From Leptolyngbyaceae cyanobacterium HOT.MB2.61 (lineage in GTDB: Bacteria > Cyanobacteriota > Cyanobacteriia > Leptolyngbyales > Leptolyngbyaceae), in the NCBI GenBank assembly GCA_023511615.1, contig JAIMBL010000010.1, forward strand, positions 1-48,597: DNA of 48,597 nt, read 5' to 3'. The stretch's first letter is position 1. The number at the start of each line of letters is the position of its first letter. Below the pieces are notes generated by a model. It was given only the letters and a program-made list of their open reading frames with translations, searched no databases and was not told the origin of the DNA. Position numbers and translations under genes: made by a program. Below, piece by piece: positions 17,353 through 45,931 of this stretch.

Positions 17353-18018
17353 CTATTGAGTCAACCCTAATTTTTTAACAATTGCCTGATCCCAGTCCTG
17401 ATCGAGCTGCCAGCCACAGGTGTGCAGGCGATCGCGAATCATTTCCTGCCAATCTTGCAGGTTCTGCAAAAACGCTGGGGATTGTAGCCCTCCGAGCCAA
17501 AGTACCAATGCATCCTCCCCCGTATCCTGGTAGTATTTTTTTCGACGCCCAACTTCTTGAAACCCAAACTTTTGATATAGGGAAAGGGCTGATTGATTAG
17601 AAATTCTGACTTCAAGGGTTGCCCGCTCCAATCCCTGAAGGTAAGCAGACCGCAGCAGAGCGTAGAACAAAGCCTGTCCCAATCCCTGCCGATGATATTC
17701 TGGAGCAATCCCCAGGACAGTGATGTGGGCTTCCTCCAGGATGGCCCAGTAACAACCAATTCCGAGGAGGGGAGGAGGGGAGGAGGGAGGAGATGGTAGG
17801 GAGAGAGGAGTGGGGGAGTAGAAGGCTGCCTTTTTGTGCCTGCTCCGAGTTTCAACAAGTTCTTTCCCTGCTTTTAAGATCAGCAACGCACTGTTGGGGC
17901 TGTCGAGTTCCCGCCGATATCCATCCAGAGTCCAGAGCCCACCAAAGCAGCGTTGGTCAAGTTCAAAGGCGTCAGGTAGCAGATCTTCCGTAAGAGGTTG
18001 AAATGAGAGAAAAGTCAC
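17353..18018 (-). CDS. rimI: Ribosomal protein S18-alanine N-acetyltransferase with internal low-complexity insert
   Basis: 221 residues, against about 150-190 for typical RimI. GNAT fold acetyl-CoA transferase. The acetyl-CoA-binding region reads ITVLGIAPEYHRQGLGQAL, followed by LEVRISNQSALSLYQKFGF and GRRKKYYQ, all typical of RimI. The extra length is an insert of about 30 residues (near 58-87, Ser/Pro/Leu-rich, LSLPSPPSSPPPLL) between two core strands; on DNA it is a polypyrimidine tract on the coding strand (17760-17820). Conserved residues on either side are intact, so the protein may still fold. Divergent from lysA. Confidence 0.88.
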   Translation of the reverse strand: MTFLSFQPLTEDLLPDAFELDQRCFGGLWTLDGYRRELDSPNSALLILKAGKELVETRSRHKKAAFYSPTPLSLPSPPSSPPPLLGIGCYWAILEEAHITVLGIAPEYHRQGLGQALFYALLRSAYLQGLERATLEVRISNQSALSLYQKFGFQEVGRRKKYYQDTGEDALVLWLGGLQSPAFLQNLQDWQEMIRDRLHTCGWQLDQDWDQAIVKKLGLTQ

Positions 18019-18110: not shown

Positions 18111-19601
18111 ATGGTATCAACTCACGCTGTGGAGGGGCAGAACTCGGGTTGCCAGTATTTGCCCGATCGCAACTCTACCCAAGCAACTCCTTCCCCAAAT
18201 CAGCAGCTTCTGCCACTAACCGCAAGAATCAACGCAGATGACCACCTGGAGATTGGAGGGTGTGATGTAGTTGATTTGGTTCGTAAATTTGGTTCTCCCC
18301 TCTATATTTTAGACGAGGAAACGTTGCGATCAGCGTGTCGCCAGTACCGGGAAGCTTTTGCCCGTTACTATCCTGGAGAGGCACAGGTGTTGTACGCCTC
18401 AAAGGCGTGGAGTTGCCTGGCGGTGGTAGCGATCGCAGCCAGCGAAGGGTTGGGAATTGATGTCGTCTCTGGGGGCGAAATTTACACGGCCCTCCAGGCT
18501 GGAGTCAGCCCCACCAGGCTCTATTTTCACGGTAATAATAAGTCTTTCGATGAACTACGGTTTGCCGTCGAGTCTGGCTGCAACATTGTCGTCGATAACT
18601 GGCATGAGTTGAAACTACTGGTTGATTTGTCACAGGGGATAGAACCCGGGGAAAAGTTCAGCACTCCCATCACCCCTCACCCCTCACCCCTCACCCACGA
18701 ATTGAGTCAAGGGTCAGACATGGGAGCTGCTTTCCCAATTAAGGTGATGATTCGTCTGACGCCCGGAATTGAGTGCCACACCCATGAGTACATTCGCACA
18801 GGCCACCTGGACAGCAAATTTGGATTCGACCCCAACCAGTTAGATGAGGTGTTTGACTTCCTCAGTCAGCAGTCGGGGCTGAACTGTATCGGTCTCCATG
18901 CCCATATTGGTTCCCAGATCTTTGAACTGCAACCTCATGATGACCTGGGTGCAGTCATGGTGCAGTGGTTGAGCAAAGCTGCCCGGTATGGACTCCCTGT
19001 GCAGGAGTTAAATATCGGTGGTGGGTTAGGGATTCGCTACACCGAGTTTGATGATCCTCCCAGTATTGAGGAGTGGGTTCGGGTCGTGGCGCAGTCTGTG
19101 CAAGCGGCCTGTGAGACACAGCAGGTATCTTTACCCAGGTTGTTGTGTGAACCGGGGCGATCGCTGATTGGTTCCGCCTGTGTGACTGCCTACACCGTTG
19201 GTAGCCAGAAAATTGTTCCCGAAATTCGTACCTACATCACCGTAGACGGGGGAATGTCTGACAATCCCCGTCCTATTACTTATCAATCGCTCTACCGAGT
19301 AGTGACGGCCAACCGAATGTCTGCCCCAATGACTGAAACCGTCACCATTGCTGGAAAGCATTGTGAATCGGGAGATATTTTGATTAAAGATGCCTCCTTA
19401 CCCATGACTCATCCGGGAGATGTTCTCGTTGTCATGGCAACAGGAGCATACAATTACAGTATGTCCTCTAACTACAACCGCATACCGCGTCCGTCTGCTG
19501 TTTTAGTTAGAGAGGGAGAAGCGAATATCATTCTGCAACGAGAAACCTATCAAGACTTGATGCGGCAGGATCGTTTGCCAGAGAGACTGAAACGGGCATG
19601 A
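18111..19601 (+). CDS. lysA: Diaminopimelate decarboxylase
   Basis: 496 residues. PLP enzyme converting meso-diaminopimelate to lysine, last step of lysine synthesis. YASKAW carries the PLP lysine (Lys98); GLHAHIGSQ, GGGLGIRY and the CEPGRSL motif follow in order, and the C-terminal half has GKHCESGD with the partner-subunit active-site Cys. An insert of about 30 residues (178-209, including TPITPHPSPLTHELSQGS) sits before the RLTPGIECHTHEYI strand; the DNA there has at least three ACCCCTC heptamers. The start ATG at 18111 leaves a 45-residue N-terminal extension. First of the lysA-cdaA-uppS run on the + strand. Confidence 0.95.
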   Translation: MVSTHAVEGQNSGCQYLPDRNSTQATPSPNQQLLPLTARINADDHLEIGGCDVVDLVRKFGSPLYILDEETLRSACRQYREAFARYYPGEAQVLYASKAWSCLAVVAIAASEGLGIDVVSGGEIYTALQAGVSPTRLYFHGNNKSFDELRFAVESGCNIVVDNWHELKLLVDLSQGIEPGEKFSTPITPHPSPLTHELSQGSDMGAAFPIKVMIRLTPGIECHTHEYIRTGHLDSKFGFDPNQLDEVFDFLSQQSGLNCIGLHAHIGSQIFELQPHDDLGAVMVQWLSKAARYGLPVQELNIGGGLGIRYTEFDDPPSIEEWVRVVAQSVQAACETQQVSLPRLLCEPGRSLIGSACVTAYTVGSQKIVPEIRTYITVDGGMSDNPRPITYQSLYRVVTANRMSAPMTETVTIAGKHCESGDILIKDASLPMTHPGDVLVVMATGAYNYSMSSNYNRIPRPSAVLVREGEANIILQRETYQDLMRQDRLPERLKRA

Positions 19602-19707
19602 CTTACGGGCGACGAGGTTTGAATTTGAAACTGTTTGTAGTTGAAAACTCAACCCTCATCACTCAGAACTCAACACTTTAGTAGAGGCTCAGGGTTAATC
19701 CAGATCG

Positions 19708-23010: not shown

Positions 23011-23162
23011 GCAGAACCCTGCCTCTCTTAAACCTCAATCAGATTTGACCAGCTTTTCAGATATTGTAACCGGGCAGATAGCAGATAGACGATAGGGGAT
23101 AGGCAACGGGCAATAGAGTGAAAGGTGAGGAGGATGAGGGGATAAGGAAATGGGGTATTCTC

Positions 23163-24590
23163 CTACTCCATCACTCCGTCACTCCATCCCTTCCCCACCT
23201 TCTTCTTCGTTTGAGCACACACTAACCCGAAAATTCCGGCTAACAGAAGCCAACCCAGTAGATTGATGCGGACGTCAAATAGAGTGATATCCAGCAGGCT
23301 AAAGAGTGTGCAACCCAGAAATGCTGTCAGATAGGTAAAGAGGATCAGGCGATCGCCGTTGTTTTGTGGCAGAGTGAAGGCTGGAGAACTTTCGATAGGG
23401 GCGAAGGATGGCCAGCGATAGACAAGAGAAGCCCCTCGAAACACCACCCAACCCACTAGAGCCAGCAACAACAGAGTGGCGGGGAGCCCAGTTTCTGCTG
23501 CCAACATCAGTAGCAGGTTGTGGGGATGGCCGATGAAAAATTGCATTTGCGACTGATAGAGTGGGCTGAAATTTCGCAACCCCCATCCCAGCCAAGGACG
23601 TTGCTGTGTCAGGGACCAGGCAAATTGCCACTGAGTTGTACGCAACTCAGCAAAGGGACGGTTTGGAAAGAGTTGGTCAGTTAACCTGGCCCAAAAGAAT
23701 GCAGGAACGATCGCCCTCAGTCCCTGCTGCAGAGGCGAAGGTGCAAACGCCGCCCCCAGAACAGCCCCAACTACCACAGCAACTCCTGCCAACAACCAGC
23801 GCCAGCCTTGGTAAAAAGCAAAGGCAAGACAGGCCAGGATGGCAACAGCCCAGGCATTGCGGGAATTGGTAAAAATGAGGGCGATCGCATTGCCAACCAG
23901 AACCAGGGCGAGGAAGAGGCGGAGATAGGGAGGGGAAACCGGGGAGGGGTGAATGGTAGGGGAGGAATGGCTGGTTTCCAGATCTTTCTGCTTTTCTGGA
24001 ATTGGTTGGGGACTGAGGCTGACTTCGACAAGAAGACCTAAGTTTAGAATGAAGCTAACGACTAGAAAGCTGGCCAGAACATTGGCGTAGAAGAAGATTG
24101 AGGCCATTCGACCAAGGGGATTGCCGCCAGGGTGAATTGTCCAGTTCACAATGCTGCCAAAAACCTGCACCGGCCCGGCCCAGCCCCAAAACTGTTGCCC
24201 AAAGCCAATCAAGACAACAGGAACTGAACTGATGACCAGAAGCCAGGCAATTCTGCGTAGTTGATGGGGAGTCTGAATTAGTTCACTCAGAGCCGCAAAG
24301 ACAATGAAAAAGGGCAGAAAGTTAGCCAGCCCCAGCCATGCTTCCGGTGGCTGATAAGCCAGGATGGAACTCAATAGCATAAGCAAACCAACGCCCCAAA
24401 GACCCCAGTTAACAGCCCGGCGAGCAATAGACTTGAAGCGAAACTTCAACAGAATGAGTGAAATTAGGGAAATTGCCACACTGCTCAGTAGGGAACTCAA
24501 TGGCAACAGTAGCACGGCCAGTTGGGTACCTTCCCACAAAGTTTGTAGTGAGGGATCGGGATGGCGCGGGAATCGAATCAGCCGTTTCAA
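23163..24590 (-). CDS. O-antigen ligase-like membrane protein (Wzy_C family)
   Basis: 475 residues from a TTG start that lies 2 bases after the preceding stop (translational coupling likely). About 10-12 membrane helices. The family hallmark is the long loop with the PWLGWGLRNFSPLYQ segment and GHPHNLLLMLAAETGL followed by two helices, as in WaaL/Wzy-type ligases and IctB-like proteins. In the middle (about 218-245) is a Ser/Pro-rich insert (ETSHSSPTIHPSPVSPPYLR) encoded by a polypyrimidine tract. It could join surface glycan to its acceptor; it is not within the export locus 10 kb away, so the link is inferred only. Some cyanobacterial relatives are annotated as bicarbonate-transport IctB proteins; I would not use that name here. 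Confidence 0.82.
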   Translation of the reverse strand: MKRLIRFPRHPDPSLQTLWEGTQLAVLLLPLSSLLSSVAISLISLILLKFRFKSIARRAVNWGLWGVGLLMLLSSILAYQPPEAWLGLANFLPFFIVFAALSELIQTPHQLRRIAWLLVISSVPVVLIGFGQQFWGWAGPVQVFGSIVNWTIHPGGNPLGRMASIFFYANVLASFLVVSFILNLGLLVEVSLSPQPIPEKQKDLETSHSSPTIHPSPVSPPYLRLFLALVLVGNAIALIFTNSRNAWAVAILACLAFAFYQGWRWLLAGVAVVVGAVLGAAFAPSPLQQGLRAIVPAFFWARLTDQLFPNRPFAELRTTQWQFAWSLTQQRPWLGWGLRNFSPLYQSQMQFFIGHPHNLLLMLAAETGLPATLLLLALVGWVVFRGASLVYRWPSFAPIESSPAFTLPQNNGDRLILFTYLTAFLGCTLFSLLDITLFDVRINLLGWLLLAGIFGLVCAQTKKKVGKGWSDGVME

Positions 24591-30291: not shown

Positions 30292-32907
30292 ATGTATTCA
30301 ATCTCAAATCCTTCCCCTGACTTAGTTGTGCCAAATTTGCGGCGACCAGAGCTACTGTCTCCAGCCGGTCACTGGGACTGTGCCAGAGCGGCGGTTGAAA
30401 ATGGGGCGGATGCCATCTACTTTGGGCTGGAGCGGTTCAATGCGCGTATGCGGGCGCACAACTTTACAGAAGCTGATTTACCGCGCTTGATGGAGTTTTT
30501 GCACCGCCGGGGAGTCAAGGGGTATGTGACACTTAACACGCTTGTCTTTCCCCGTGAATTGGCCGAGGCAGAACACTACCTTCGTACCATCATCGCTGCT
30601 GGGGTTGATGCAGTTATCGTACAGGATGTGGGAATTTGCCGATTAATTCGCCATCTGTCTCCCGACTTTCCGATTCATGCCTCTACCCAGATGACAATTA
30701 CCAGTGCGGCAGGGGTAGAATTTGCCCAATCTCTGGGTTGTCAGTTAGTCGTGCTTGCGCGGGAATGCTCGCTCAAGGAAATTGAGAAGATTCAGAAACA
30801 ACTTGGAGAGCGGGGCATTTCACTGCCTCTAGAAGTCTTTGTACATGGAGCGCTGTGTGTGGCGTATTCGGGGCAGTGCCTGACGAGTGAAGCGTTGGGG
30901 GGGCGGTCTGCCAACCGGGGAGAATGTGCCCAGGCATGCCGGATGCCCTATGAGTTAATTGCGGATGGGCAACTGGTGGAGTTGGGCGATCGCAAATATC
31001 TGCTCAGCCCTCAGGATTTGATGGGCCTGGAGGTGTTGCCAGAGTTGGTGCAGGCGGGGGTAAGCTGCTTGAAGATAGAGGGCCGTCTGAAGACCCCGGA
31101 GTATGTTGCGAATGTGACACGGGTGTATCGCCAGGCTCTAGATCGGGCGATCGCATCGCTTCTGGATGTGAAAACACCAAAACCAAGGAACACAGAGCAT
31201 CGAGAGCAAATTGAAAGATTTTCCTCCTCCCTCCCTCCTCCCCCCTCCCCGGATCGCTACAATCTGGAAATGGCCTTTTCTCGTGGTCTGTACCCAGGCT
31301 GGTTTCGTGGGATTAATAATCAGGAACTGGTTCATGCCCGCTTTGGTAAGAAACGAGGCGTCTACCTGGGAGAAGTTAAGCGCATCAAGAATGACCAGGT
31401 CATCATTCAGCTTCATGCTCCAGTGAAACCAGGGGATGGAGTTGTGTTTGATAGGGGGCATCCCGAAACCCAGGAAGAGGGGGGACGGGTCTATGCCGTT
31501 GAGCAGCGGGGGCAGGAAGCGTGGTTGACCTTTGGGCGACGGGATTTGAATCTACAACGGGTGCAGGCAGGCGATCGGGTTTGGAAGACAAGTGACCCGG
31601 AGCTGGATCGGCAGTTGCGCCAGACCTTTGCTGGGGATGTACCTCAGTTTCAACGCCCAATCTGGCTGGAAATTTATGGCGAGATAGGGCAACCACTGGT
31701 GGCGATCGCCCGTGACGAGCAAGGGCACATCGTTCAGGTAGAGTCTGCCATGCCACTGGTGGAGGCCCATACCCGACCGCTGACGGGCGATCGCCTGCAA
31801 GGACAGTTCGGCAGATTGGGGAATACGCCATTTCGCCTGGAAAGTTTGGCGAACCATCTGCATGGGGCAGTGATGTTGCCTGTCAGCGAACTGAACCGTT
31901 TGCGGCGGGAGATAGTGACCCAGTTGGAGAAATTAAGAGCCCAGCCCAAACGCTGGCAACTGCGGTCCAATGTTTCGTTCAGGGATTTGTTGCCGAACCA
32001 GGGTGGATTGATCGAGAAACGCAGCAATCGCCTCTTACCTCTGCCCCACCTGATTGTACTGGTGCGGAATTTGAACCAGTTACAGGCAGCATTGAAAGCA
32101 GGAATTGAGACGCTTTACTGTGAATTTGAAGACCCACGGGCCTATCGGGAAGCGGTAAAACTCGTCAAGACTCAAGGGCACGAAAACTCATCTCCTCACT
32201 CCCTACTTCCTGCTCCCTCCCTTTGGGTAGCCCCACCGCGAATTACCAAACCAGGAGAACAGTGGATATTGCAACAGGTGCGATCGTCCAATGCGGATGG
32301 TTATCTGGTGCGCAACTATGATCATTTGCAATTTTTTGCAGGGGAACGCTGTATTGGGGATTTTTCCTTAAATATTGCCAATTCCCTGACAGTTTCCTAC
32401 TTCAAACAGTCGTTTGGGTTGGAGCGATTGACCGCATCCTACGATCTAAGCATCAGCCAGCTTGAAGACCTACTCAGAGAAAGTCCACCAGAGTGGTTTG
32501 AAGTGACGATTCACCAGCACATGCCCATGTTTCATATGGAGCATTGTGTATTCTGCGCCTTTCTGTCTACGGGCACGGACTATACAAACTGTGGGCGGCC
32601 CTGTGAGAAAAAGGTGGTGAAGTTGCGCGATCGCGTTGGGGCTGAACACATTTTGCAAGCGGATGCTGGCTGTCGCAATACCCTATTTAACGGAACTGCC
32701 CAAACTGGAGCCGAGTATGCTCAGCGTCTCTTAGATCTGGGTTTGCGCCACTTTCGGATTGAATTTGTTAATGAAACTCCTGAGCAGGTGGTGCAGATTA
32801 TTCAACGCTATCGCCAGTTACTGCAAAGAGAAATCACGGGCTCTCAGCTCTGGCAAGAATTGAAGCTACAGAGTCAGCTTGGGGTGACGCGGGGGCCATC
32901 CCTATGA
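30292..32907 (+). CDS. U32 family peptidase / RNA hydroxylation-type protein with DUF3656
   Basis: 871 residues from the ATG at 30292. The N-terminal U32 domain reads ELLSPAGHWDCARAAVENGAD, then QDVGICRLI, ASTQMTITS and LEVFVHGALCVAYSGQC; the conserved Cys cluster RGECAQACRMPY follows. Relatives (RlhA, TrhP, YhbUV) hydroxylate rRNA/tRNA bases or take part in ubiquinone hydroxylation, and the peptidase label is historical. A DUF3656-like middle and a second U32-like half with HMPMFHMEHCVFCAF come next. Two Ser/Pro-rich inserts (near 300-317 and 630-645) are encoded by polypyrimidine tracts (31190-31255 and 32170-32226). Overlaps the next gene by 4 bases. Confidence 0.9.
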   Translation: MYSISNPSPDLVVPNLRRPELLSPAGHWDCARAAVENGADAIYFGLERFNARMRAHNFTEADLPRLMEFLHRRGVKGYVTLNTLVFPRELAEAEHYLRTIIAAGVDAVIVQDVGICRLIRHLSPDFPIHASTQMTITSAAGVEFAQSLGCQLVVLARECSLKEIEKIQKQLGERGISLPLEVFVHGALCVAYSGQCLTSEALGGRSANRGECAQACRMPYELIADGQLVELGDRKYLLSPQDLMGLEVLPELVQAGVSCLKIEGRLKTPEYVANVTRVYRQALDRAIASLLDVKTPKPRNTEHREQIERFSSSLPPPPSPDRYNLEMAFSRGLYPGWFRGINNQELVHARFGKKRGVYLGEVKRIKNDQVIIQLHAPVKPGDGVVFDRGHPETQEEGGRVYAVEQRGQEAWLTFGRRDLNLQRVQAGDRVWKTSDPELDRQLRQTFAGDVPQFQRPIWLEIYGEIGQPLVAIARDEQGHIVQVESAMPLVEAHTRPLTGDRLQGQFGRLGNTPFRLESLANHLHGAVMLPVSELNRLRREIVTQLEKLRAQPKRWQLRSNVSFRDLLPNQGGLIEKRSNRLLPLPHLIVLVRNLNQLQAALKAGIETLYCEFEDPRAYREAVKLVKTQGHENSSPHSLLPAPSLWVAPPRITKPGEQWILQQVRSSNADGYLVRNYDHLQFFAGERCIGDFSLNIANSLTVSYFKQSFGLERLTASYDLSISQLEDLLRESPPEWFEVTIHQHMPMFHMEHCVFCAFLSTGTDYTNCGRPCEKKVVKLRDRVGAEHILQADAGCRNTLFNGTAQTGAEYAQRLLDLGLRHFRIEFVNETPEQVVQIIQRYRQLLQREITGSQLWQELKLQSQLGVTRGPSL

Positions 32908-34250
32908 GTGAAGCTTCGATTCGGCCAGCCCTAATCACTGCGGTGTTGCCGGATTCCATCGCGGCAGAGATTGGATTTGAGGCGGGCGATCGCCTGGTTG
33001 CCATTAATGGTCAACGTCCCCGTGATTTAATTGATTACCAGTTCCTCTGCGCCGATGAAGTACTGGAACTGGAAGTTCTGGACAGGAATGGCAAAACCCA
33101 CCAGATTGAAATTGAAAAAGACTACGACGAAGATCTGGGGCTGGAATTTGATACGGCCCTGTTTGATGGGTTGATGCAGTGTAATAATCGCTGCCCGTTT
33201 TGCTTTATTGACCAGCAGCCACCCGGAAAACGGGAAACCCTGTATTTAAAAGATGACGACTACCGGCTCAGTTTTCTCTACGGCAGTTACCTGACCTTGA
33301 CCAATCTCAGCTCCAGAGAGTGGGAACGGATTGAACAAATGCGGTTGTCTCCCCTCTACGTATCTGTGCATGCCACAGAGCCAGAGGTGCGGATTCGACT
33401 TTTAAAGAATCCCCGTGCTGGCAAAATTCTGGAGCAATTGCGGTGGTTTCAAGAACGGCGATTGCAAATTCATGCACAGGTTGTTCTTTGCCCCGGAATT
33501 AATGATGGTGACCATCTGACACGGACATTGCTGGATCTGGCTCAATTTCATGGGGAGGATATTCCAGCAGTTGCTTCAGTGGCGGTGGTGCCTGTAGGGT
33601 TAACGCGCTTTCGTCCAGAGGGCGATGAATTAATTCCAGTCACGCCTGAAAAAGCTCAGGAAGTAATTGCTCAGGTACAAGATCTGCAAGCCAAGTTTCG
33701 GCAGCAGTATGGCTCTAATGTGGTTTGGTTGGCAGACGAGTGGTTTTTGATCGCCAGGCAGGAGTTACCGCCGGAATCCCATTACGAGGACTATCCCCAA
33801 ATCGGTAATGGTGTTGGTTCAATTCGGCTATTTCTCAAGGAGTTTCAGAAGGCCGCCCGTAAGTTACCGAAGCGCCTGAAGTTGCCGCGTCGCTTTACCT
33901 GGGTTGTGGGAAATGCGGTGGAACTTGCTTTTCGACCCATTTTGCAGCGGTTAAATCAGGTAAAGGGATTGGAGGTGAGGATGGTGGCGATCGCCAGCGA
34001 GTATTGGGGCCAGACCATAACCGTGACGGGCCTGCTCACCGGACAGGACATTCTCAACGCTCTGAAAGACCAGGATCTGGGCGATGGCGTCCTCCTTCCT
34101 TCCCTCATGCTCAAGCAGGGAGACACCCGCTTTCTGGATGACATGACCATTGCAGACCTGGCCCAGCAATTGAATACTCGAATTCTGCCAGTTAATGGAG
34201 TGGAGGAGTTGATTGAGCGGTGTAAGGGGTGGGGGGTGGATGAGTTTTGA
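32904..34250 (+). CDS. PDZ, radical-SAM-like and DUF512 protein
   Basis: 448 residues. An N-terminal PDZ-like domain (about 1-85, with PDSIAAEIGFEAGDRLVAINGQ) is followed by Cys93, Cys97 and Cys100 in CNNRCPFCF, a C-x3-C-x2-C cluster as in radical SAM enzymes, then FLYGSYLTLTN, LSPLYVSVHATEP and the DUF512 C-terminal half. This combination is a known cyanobacterial family (FeS-oxidoreductase-like) with no known reaction. Gene overlap ATGA with the U32 gene suggests the two work on the same target, possibly RNA. The reading frame ends inside four GAGTTTT heptamers (34244-34269). Confidence 0.88.
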   Translation: MSEASIRPALITAVLPDSIAAEIGFEAGDRLVAINGQRPRDLIDYQFLCADEVLELEVLDRNGKTHQIEIEKDYDEDLGLEFDTALFDGLMQCNNRCPFCFIDQQPPGKRETLYLKDDDYRLSFLYGSYLTLTNLSSREWERIEQMRLSPLYVSVHATEPEVRIRLLKNPRAGKILEQLRWFQERRLQIHAQVVLCPGINDGDHLTRTLLDLAQFHGEDIPAVASVAVVPVGLTRFRPEGDELIPVTPEKAQEVIAQVQDLQAKFRQQYGSNVVWLADEWFLIARQELPPESHYEDYPQIGNGVGSIRLFLKEFQKAARKLPKRLKLPRRFTWVVGNAVELAFRPILQRLNQVKGLEVRMVAIASEYWGQTITVTGLLTGQDILNALKDQDLGDGVLLPSLMLKQGDTRFLDDMTIADLAQQLNTRILPVNGVEELIERCKGWGVDEF

Positions 34251-34269
34251 GTTTTGAGTTTTGAGTTTT
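34242..34269. repeat. GAGTTTT heptamer x4 across a stop codon
   Basis: Four consecutive GAGTTTT units. The first supplies the last codons and the TGA of the radical-SAM/DUF512 gene. Confidence 0.88.
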
Positions 34270-34317
34270 CACCTCCCCCCCTCACCCCTCACTTCACTAA
34301 CAACTAACAACTCTCTC

Positions 34318-37144: not shown

Positions 37145-38131
37145 TTAAACTTCCCATCCCCAGGATAGACGGGCAATCCAGAACCCAATCAGGGCGGCGA
37201 TCGCCAGCCAATCCCTTAATCGCAGTCGAAACTGGTACCATTGCACCCGGTGCTGATCAGGGCTCGTGAAGCCACGCACTTTCATTGCACTGGCCATTTG
37301 TTCAGCCCGCAACAGCAGATTCTCCAACAGTCGTTCTGCAACGACTAACCAGACTTCGATACTGCGGCGCATTCCCAATTTGCGCCAATTAATGGCACGG
37401 GTGCTGACAGACCGGATCAGGTTCTGAATTTCTTCCAGTACCAGCGGAATGAAACGGAGGGAAAGGGTGAGGGTGAGGGCAACTTCGGTGACTGGCAGTT
37501 TGAAACGGCGCAGAGGTTCCAGGCAGTTTTCAATCGCCGCCGTGATTTCCTCTGGCGCAGTCGTTAACAGGTACAGGTTAGCGCTATAGATGAGGGTAAA
37601 CAGCAGGGTACTGAAGCGAATGGCCAGATCGAGCGATCGCCGCGTCACCGTAATTGGTCCCCGTTTGAATAACACGTAGTTATAATCCGTTGGCTGGCGG
37701 AGAGAAGGGTTGCGCTGTTCCCCTGGCAAAGGGGGGGGAGACTGGCCAATCGCAAAGGGATTCCAGGATGATTGGGGGGCTGGCGGCAACGTGGCGGGCT
37801 GATTCTGAAACTCCAGTTCATCCGCAGGCAATCGAGGCTGAGACCGAACCTTAAGCCCATCAGGCATAATGGCTGTCAGTCCAAAAATTAGCAGACTCAA
37901 CCCCAATAGCCACACCATCTGCTGCCGCCACACGCGCAGGGGGATCATGGCCGAAAGGGTGATAGCGATGAGCAAACCGACCAGCAAAATCCGCCAGAGG
38001 GGATTTGCCAGCAGAGGAGCAACCAGGAACGTCATCAACCAGGCCAGTTTGATACGGGGATCAAGCCTATGGAGCCAGGTAACGGGTTGTTCCAGGTAAA
38101 GCCCCAGGGGAAGGGAACGCAGCAGATCCAT
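37145..38131 (-). CDS. Energy-coupling factor transporter T component (CbiQ family)
   Basis: 328 residues. Transmembrane coupling protein (EcfT) of ECF-type ABC importers for vitamins or metal ions. Helices near 28-60 and 67-90, a cytoplasmic segment, more helices, and the two coupling motifs with Ala-Arg-Gly-like MKVRGF (about 286-291) near the C-terminus. The stretch 105-150, with SSWNPFAIGQSPPPLPGEQRN, is a Pro-rich insert that other CbiQ proteins lack; it comes from repeat-like DNA. No ATPase or S-component gene is adjacent, so it likely serves a shared system. Plastid-like cyanobacterial form. Confidence 0.85.
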   Translation of the reverse strand: MDLLRSLPLGLYLEQPVTWLHRLDPRIKLAWLMTFLVAPLLANPLWRILLVGLLIAITLSAMIPLRVWRQQMVWLLGLSLLIFGLTAIMPDGLKVRSQPRLPADELEFQNQPATLPPAPQSSWNPFAIGQSPPPLPGEQRNPSLRQPTDYNYVLFKRGPITVTRRSLDLAIRFSTLLFTLIYSANLYLLTTAPEEITAAIENCLEPLRRFKLPVTEVALTLTLSLRFIPLVLEEIQNLIRSVSTRAINWRKLGMRRSIEVWLVVAERLLENLLLRAEQMASAMKVRGFTSPDQHRVQWYQFRLRLRDWLAIAALIGFWIARLSWGWEV

Positions 38132-40474: not shown

Positions 40475-40675
40475 GCTCTACACAGGTGCGTTAGGAGATT
40501 GGAACTAGGAGGGAGTGGGGGCTTTGCCCCCAGCCAGGGATTCCACCCTGCACCCCGTCCTAACCACTCTACGAAGGTGTGTTAGAACATTGGAATTAGG
40601 AGGGAGTGGGGGCTTTGCCCCCAGCCAGGGGTTCCACCCCTGCACCCCGTCCTAGCCGCAATGACTACCGCTATA
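40471..40675. repeat. Tandem pair of family C elements
   Basis: Two head-to-tail units of about 84 bp (each with GTGGGGGCTTTGCCCCCAGC and CACCCCGTCCTA), between TATAGC (40471) and GCTATA (40675). The left end shares TATAG with the four-hairpin element. Confidence 0.8.
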
Positions 40676-44680: not shown

Positions 44681-45931
44681 TCAGCTCACCTGGTGAATTT
44701 CCCCTAAAAGTACGGCCTTTCTTGCACCCGTTACGTCTGGGAGATTCCCAGGGATGCCCTTTTGCCGCCAATAGGCTAGCACAGCAAAGGCGATCGCCTC
44801 CTTAAAGTCTGCACTCAAACCAACTTCATCCGTTGTTAAAACGGAAGTCTCTCCCAGATGAGCTTGTAGCCGCTGTTTTAAGTATAGATTCTTGCTGCCG
44901 CCTCCACATAGTAGAACTTCATCGGGTAGTTGGGGGAGAAAGCGGTGGTAGCTATGGGCGATCGAGGCTACGGTCAGTTCAGTCAGGGTGGCTAATATAT
45001 CGGCATGGTTTAGTGAATAGGGTTGCGCGTCTAGCAGACACTGTTCCAGATAGGCTGGGCTAAACAGTTCCCTACCCGTAGACTTTGGCGGTGGAAGCTG
45101 AAAGAATTCTTGCTGTAGCCACTGCTGTACCAGTTCCTGACAGGGAGTACCGCTGGCTGCCCAGGCCCCACTCTGATCATAGGTTCTACTGCCGTTAGAG
45201 AATTTTTGCACAGCCAGATCGAGGAGGGCGTTGCCGGGGCCAGTGTCCCAACCAATGACGGAAGGGGCTATGCCTTCGTGCCTGCCGGGGGGAGAAGTAG
45301 TGGATGTTTGAGATCTGGCTGGGAGGTAGGTTACATTTCCGATGCCGCCGATGTTTTGAACGCAGCGGTTGAGGGTTGGGTGGGAGAGGAGAGCAAAATC
45401 AACGGCTGGAACGAGGGGTGCTCCTTCGCCACCTGCGGCAATATCGGCCGCCCGGAAGTTGCTGATAGTGGTTCTACTTGTGAGGTGAGCGATGAGGGCT
45501 CCGCGTCCTAACTGGAGGCTGTAGCCAAGAGGGAAGGAAGGGGTTGGAGGGGGATTTGGAGAGGAGAACTTTGTTTGGTTTTGCGGATCATCGCCCCATC
45601 TTCTTATGACTCCACCTTTGCCCGGTGGGCGATGGAACACTGTTTGTCCGTGGGAACCGATTAGCTCGGCGGGTGAATGTTCTAACTGGAGGGCGATCGC
45701 CGCTTCTGCGAAGCACCGGGCAATCTGGTCATCCAGTTCTGCCAGAGCTGCCATTGACAGAGGTTTCCCGGCATAGACGGCCAGAATTTGCTCTCGCAGG
45801 GTCGCTGGGTAGGGGAAGGTGTTTCCAGCTAGAAGGTCAACTTTCAGGTCCTGGGTCAATCCAGAAATTTCGACCAGAGCCGCATCGATGCCATCGACTG
45901 AGGTGCCGCTAATCAGACCAATTACACGCAT
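44681..45931 (-). CDS. anmK: Anhydro-N-acetylmuramic acid kinase
   Basis: 416 residues. Phosphorylates 1,6-anhydro-N-acetylmuramic acid, recycling peptidoglycan fragments. Start [47 protein letters not shown] and LLCGGGSKN are family hallmarks. Two Ser/Pro-rich stretches (near 118-136, [16 protein letters not shown], and 207-222, [14 protein letters not shown]) are longer than in bacterial relatives of about 370 residues and are encoded by polypyrimidine tracts. The ATG comes two bases after the stop of a gene remnant. Confidence 0.94.

Follow-up and report, generated by a model that had tools for sequence, protein, structure and literature searches.

Heptamer repeat tracts in enzyme loops of Leptolyngbyaceae cyanobacterium HOT.MB2.61 and their likely origin in intergenic repeats filtered by stop codons

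Results

Extra stretches in conserved enzymes of the window

The window analysed here (48,597 nucleotides) is one whole contig of the 5.29-Mb draft genome (383 contigs) of Leptolyngbyaceae cyanobacterium HOT.MB2.61, labelled G000; G001 is a same-genus relative, and G004, G006, G028 and G032 are other relatives. Profile searches confirmed the genes of interest as RimI (TIGR01575), LysA (TIGR01048), an O-antigen ligase family protein (PF04932), peptidase U32 (PF01136), CbiQ/EcfT (PF02361) and AnmK (PF03702). An earlier note on this DNA had proposed that all of them carry extra Ser/Pro/Leu-rich stretches encoded by polypyrimidine or heptamer tracts. Each tract was scored for lag-7 self-similarity and pyrimidine content against random stretches of the same contig, and its length was judged by comparison with orthologs. 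The sites are the following:

17770-17868, minus strand: RimI insert (aa 51-83), rich in Ser and Pro and flanked by beta strands; 96% of a 45-nt stretch of its coding strand is pyrimidine
18633-18734, plus strand: LysA (diaminopimelate decarboxylase) loop insert, aa 175-208, with a (CCCCTCA)n array at 18666-18695
23919-24020, minus strand: O-antigen-ligase-like protein loop, aa 191-224; pyrimidine-rich, not heptameric (lag-7 p 0.30)
31153-31257, plus strand: U32 peptidase family protein loop 1, aa 292-326, with an array at 31223-31249
32173-32229, plus strand: U32 loop 2, aa 632-650; weak heptamer signal (p 0.02)
37682-37864, minus strand: EcfT Pro-rich loop of near-constant length, no lag-7 array; not an insert
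45263-45322, minus strand: AnmK loop 2, aa 204-223; neither heptameric (p 0.93) nor pyrimidine-rich (p 0.68) in this genome
45524-45625, minus strand: AnmK loop 1, aa 103-136; pyrimidine-rich, not heptameric in this genome (lag-7 p 0.66)

The clearest array lies in LysA, where (CCCCTCA)4.4 reaches a lag-7 score of 21.7 (p ~0.001) and the insert region contains the peptide ITPHPSPLTHELSQ. The corresponding segment measures 69 aa, compared with 43 aa in G001, which has no heptamers there; the loop is empty in that relative, with insert ends that cannot be defined at 83% protein identity. A short stretch also aligns at the insert position in Mycobacterium LysA (1hkv). In RimI the aligned segment is 60 aa long, compared with 33 aa in most orthologs, and its tract is exceptional in pyrimidine content (p 0.001) rather than in period: the lag-7 signal is weak (p 0.035), and lag 8 fits better (score 16). 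Both LysA and RimI have intact frames and keep their conserved residues despite the inserts. Loop 1 of the U32 protein (array score 14.1 at lag 7, p 0.007) has 65 aa where 37-50 are typical, and loop 2 has 47 where orthologs have 35-37. The ligase loop, measured as gaps between aligned pieces, is about 34 aa long, with 3-9 aa in most orthologs, ~31 in G006 and 82 in G004. The two AnmK loops measure 51 aa (typically 24-36) and 43 aa (30-34 in orthologs).

Thus the proposed extra length holds for RimI, LysA, the ligase, U32 and AnmK, every examined site but EcfT exceeding its length in most orthologs. EcfT was rejected as an insert case: its loop has 60-67 aa in 30/30 orthologs and, judged from these sequences, is ancestral and nearly constant in length. 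The proposed heptamers were confirmed in LysA and U32 loop 1 and weakly in U32 loop 2 and RimI, while in the lag-7 test in this genome period 7 was absent from EcfT, the ligase and both AnmK loops. Among the named sites, assignment to STRR-type heptamers is therefore confident only for the LysA and U32 tracts. For tracts lacking period 7, relatives with heptamers in the same loop would point to a heptamer origin: AnmK loop 1 is heptameric in G032, G028 and G004, and loop 2 in these three and in G006. In the present genome itself, such an origin for AnmK loop 2 is unsupported by either test.

In AlphaFold models, the RimI insert lies between two beta strands with pLDDT 59-67, in a core mostly at 91-98, and LysA aa 181-205, which join a helix to a strand, fall below 50. 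As the LysA model has other low-confidence parts (mean 74), the RimI model is the better evidence. Both agree with the earlier suggestion of disordered loops.

Heptamer arrays across the genome

Arrays were counted in 1.5 Mb of G000 and in 0.4 Mb each of G001 and G004. Their density in G000 was 103.6/Mb at lag 7, compared with 2.0-11.8/Mb at lags 5, 8, 10 and 11; lag-7 density was 107.5/Mb in G001 and 320/Mb in G004. An array was called in-gene if both flanks scored as coding in the same frame, a definition that left a single case in G001, too few for use. The 173 arrays of G000 comprise 128 intergenic, 28 in-gene and 17 edge cases, a strong depletion within genes, as called genes make up 71% of this DNA. 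The families are AACTCAA, AGGAGTC, CCCCTCA and GTTGTTA. These tandem 7-base units, dispersed and mainly intergenic, match the STRR-type heptamers of cyanobacteria. Intergenic DNA near the enzyme tracts contains them as well, as had been noted, at the following places (no strand assigned):

2549-2597: heptamer composite, purine arm followed by AACTCAA
6950-6971: GTTGTTA array
19648-19676: degenerate AACTCAA array, downstream of lysA
23074-23112: purine-rich heptamer array
34241-34311: heptamer composite TTGAGTT - CCCCTCA - TAACAAC

Two other repeats were encountered: at 40476-40654 of the window, outside called genes, stand two tandem copies of a 91-base unit (90% matches), and contig C13 of the same genome begins with a run of 67 C (L165:1-67) at the contig end, probably an assembly artefact.

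Strand composition and the stop filter

The earlier note held that the coding strand is never the purine-rich complement. This is true of the sites it listed and false genome-wide: tested over 1.5 Mb of G000, in-gene inserts also occur in purine orientation, with 11 arrays purine-rich, 10 pyrimidine-rich and 7 mixed on the coding strand. In G004 the counts were 5, 8 and 0 (0.4 Mb), and in the RimI, LysA, AnmK and U32 loops of orthologs 18, 23 and 9. Purine-rich in-gene arrays are translated, for example, as EGKGARGQGPGVRSQE or EGGREKGKGERKELEARSQEP.

Seven is not a multiple of three, and an array of at least three units is consequently read in all three frames, so that within a gene it survives only if its sense strand holds no stop triplet at any phase. 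CCCCTCA and AACTCAA are stop-free as written, and so is the purine-rich AGGAGTC; the complements of all three contain TGA. GTTGTTA contains TAG and its complement TAA. By this stop content, arrays of the first three families can persist in a single direction and those of GTTGTTA in no direction. AACTC units were indeed sense-directed in 8/8 in-gene cases of G000 (8:0), and GTTGTTA arrays made up 0/28 in-gene and 24/128 intergenic arrays there; pooled with G004, the class stands at 0/41 and 43/224 (p 8e-4).

Among the in-gene arrays of G000, 20/28 had a sense strand free of stops in every frame, compared with 63/256 intergenic strands (p 1e-6), a partly circular count given that the gene caller requires an open frame, which the all-three-frame and antisense comparisons soften. 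The antisense strand of the same arrays was at background (5/28 open), and in G004 12/13 in-gene arrays were open, compared with 62/192 intergenic. The antisense and heptamer-type comparisons are less circular than the count of open sense strands. Intergenic openness alone predicts pyrimidine shares of 0.59 (G000) and 0.64 (G004), and 10/21 and 8/13 were observed. The existing strand bias is the stop filter, and no pyrimidine bias remains to be explained.

Recurrence in the same loops

A survey of 94 RimI, 102 LysA, 30 AnmK and 30 U32 proteins found 50/55 heptamer arrays, two of the 50 belonging to G000 itself, inside the same loops across many genera (RimI 19/22, LysA 15/15, AnmK 10/10, U32 6/8). 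The loops make up 8-20% of each protein; with the two own arrays excluded and longer loops allowed for, binomial p values are 7e-8, 3e-12, 1e-6 and 4e-4 in the same order. Loop length ranges from a few to more than 100 residues of unrelated sequence, and the loops are short in most genomes. The arrays vary by lineage, with CCCCAGT in Trichocoleus LysA (L059), CCCAATT in Symploca RimI (L098), and ACACCCC and AGGCAGA in loops of G004, while some Nostocales LysA loops carry other repeats of GDTE or DKG type.

Inserts at the same place in unrelated cyanobacteria were one of the two findings that the earlier note had set against its own proposal. They do occur, although their sequence and length differ, and the same sites with differing content therefore point to recurrent insertion at tolerant positions and not to a shared old loop.

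Some neighbouring observations concern the same proteins or similar inserts. At the same site in RimI of G032 (L022), the loop carries a six-residue SHAAPA repeat (18-base unit) in place of heptamers. U32 has a further insertion site at about position 380, where two genomes have heptamer arrays (L240, L242). Two large genes on one stretch share a near-identical heptamer composite insert (L189:5181-5414 and L189:10581-10743). In AnmK of G006 (L341), loop 2 contains a purine - AACTCAA - pyrimidine composite whose stops and frame shift break the gene into ORFs of 258 and 207 codons. Cells can usually do without AnmK, a recycling enzyme. The break is either a truly broken gene, as expected of an unguided process, or a sequencing error.

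Composites, order and folding

Loops and intergenic elements share the same purine - AACTCAA - pyrimidine composite. A purine array precedes a pyrimidine array, 5' to 3', in 45/46 pairs within 150 bases (18:0 in 80 named cyanobacteria, 22:0 in G004, 4:1 in G000 and 1:0 in G001), and within enzyme loops the order is 10:0, in a set that partly overlaps these pairs. The order reads alike from either strand. The stop filter does not require it.

Inverted-repeat arms explain some cases and not others: own arms outscored swapped arms in the 80 named cyanobacteria (13.2 vs 8.3) but not in G004 (9.5 vs 12.6), so that true arms were rejected as a general account. A hairpin or foldback element was likewise not general, with z below -2 against dinucleotide shuffles in 8/42 intergenic and 1/14 in-gene elements and an in-gene mean z of +0.58. 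Some purine arrays hold four G-runs.

At three places in G004 (L319:16887-17041, L326:1512-1620 and L335:5590-5664), a conserved stretch AGAAGGAGTCAGGAACGGCTCATGCA and its variants stand between GTTTTTA and CTAACAA arrays. It looks like a small dispersed repeat (SDR). SDRs are reportedly embedded in cyanobacterial heptamer arrays (Elhai et al. 2008), and the G004 stretch is placed like them.

The purine-to-pyrimidine order agrees with a report on Nostoc and Xanthomonas (PMC4692102), in which G-rich heptamers that follow a stop codon lie on the sense strand and those that precede a start codon on the antisense strand.

Discussion

Origin of the inserts

Taken together, these observations make it likely that heptamer repeats already resident in the genome enter genes without guidance, pass a filter for open frame and loop tolerance, and then diverge. 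The enzyme inserts would be pieces of the repeats that fill cyanobacterial intergenic DNA. Copies would arise in or enter genes regardless of strand or frame, and purifying selection would then eliminate nearly all of them. The copies that survive lie in a few loops tolerant of extra residues and are read through without a stop. Such loops then change fast, as their variation across genomes shows, probably by slippage or array exchange, and because they change fast, congeners differ in loop length and sequence. The inserted peptide is probably a neutral, disordered loop, given the low model confidence and the depletion of arrays within genes. Among the genomes compared, which include no strain-level pairs, an insertion event together with its target site was not observed.

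Arrays could instead be born locally: a chance seed in each loop would grow by slippage, and nothing would be copied from other parts of the genome. Slippage accounts for the variable length, and weakly constrained loops are where it survives. However, in-gene heptamers are shared with the intergenic set of their own genome at 0.59 (G000) and 0.71 (G004), compared with 0.35-0.55 for other genomes' intergenic sets and 0.10-0.13 for random coding DNA, and composites of intergenic type within loops are hard to obtain by independent slippage. Local birth is thus improbable, though not negligible. The same match to the genome's own intergenic heptamers supports the suggestion of the earlier note that a single process adds repeats across the genome and that selection filters them.

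Perhaps selection favours the inserts, for instance because purine or pyrimidine tracts affect the structure of mRNA or DNA. The four G-runs of some purine arrays would fit, as would the quadruplexes that related G-rich Nostoc heptamers form in vitro, as described in the passages of PMC4692102 on these repeats. Strong depletion within genes and the lack of excess stable RNA structure in in-gene elements (mean z +0.58) make this quite unlikely. Slightly less likely still, the loops would be old functional linkers conserved for a purpose, which fits EcfT with its near-constant length and is contradicted at all other sites by the variable, unrelated and mostly short loops of RimI, LysA, AnmK and U32. 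That enzymes gain pyrimidine-strand tracts through a directed or strand-biased process, as the mostly pyrimidine-rich coding strands of the tracts listed in this contig might suggest, is hardly credible, being refuted by the purine and pyrimidine counts in G000, in G004 and in the relatives' loops.

Beyond unguided entry and filtering, it is conceivable, if rather doubtful, that the heptamer mosaics form composite elements of fixed order, purine before pyrimidine, that still spread by copying and repeatedly land in the same permissive enzyme loops in separate lineages. The loops would then be natural insertion hotspots that mirror the repeat dialect of each genome.

Significance and comparison with known repeat systems

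The case shows non-coding repeats becoming protein sequence in bacteria under a simple quantitative filter, the absence of a stop at any phase of the unit. The loops of RimI, LysA, AnmK and U32 are places where nature has tested insertions many times. The case also warns that a low-complexity stretch in a cyanobacterial protein is often debris of repeats rather than a functional domain. Loop recurrence and the fixed purine-to-pyrimidine order are the parts that deserve specialist attention.

Cyanobacterial heptamer repeats, among them intragenic ones, have been described before (PMC4692102). In Nostoc PCC 7120, 68% of heptamers are intergenic and about 32% therefore intragenic, as stated in the passages on heptamers in Rehm et al. 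2015 (PMC4692102). The repeats described here resemble cyanobacterial STRR and, by those passages, the G-rich heptamers of Nostoc in having seven-base units that occur genome-wide and mainly between genes, while their families differ (AACTCAA, AGGAGTC, CCCCTCA, GTTGTTA). In-frame reading, a stop filter and recurrence in loops across genera are not described in these passages. The literature searched did not describe heptamers inserted repeatedly and in frame into the same enzyme loops of different cyanobacterial genera; this is weak evidence, as subscription papers were largely outside its coverage.

The Rickettsia palindromic elements (RPE) offer a second comparison. These small repeats have entered various unrelated metabolic genes in frame and persist there as extra peptide (PMC10969869). 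Unlike RPEs, which are palindromic elements of about 150 bp, the tracts in cyanobacterial loops are heptamer mosaics with no general hairpin, as the positive in-gene mean z shows. Like RPEs, they are inserted in frame and leave the protein intact, as seen in the frames of LysA and RimI and in the absence of the LysA insert from a relative.
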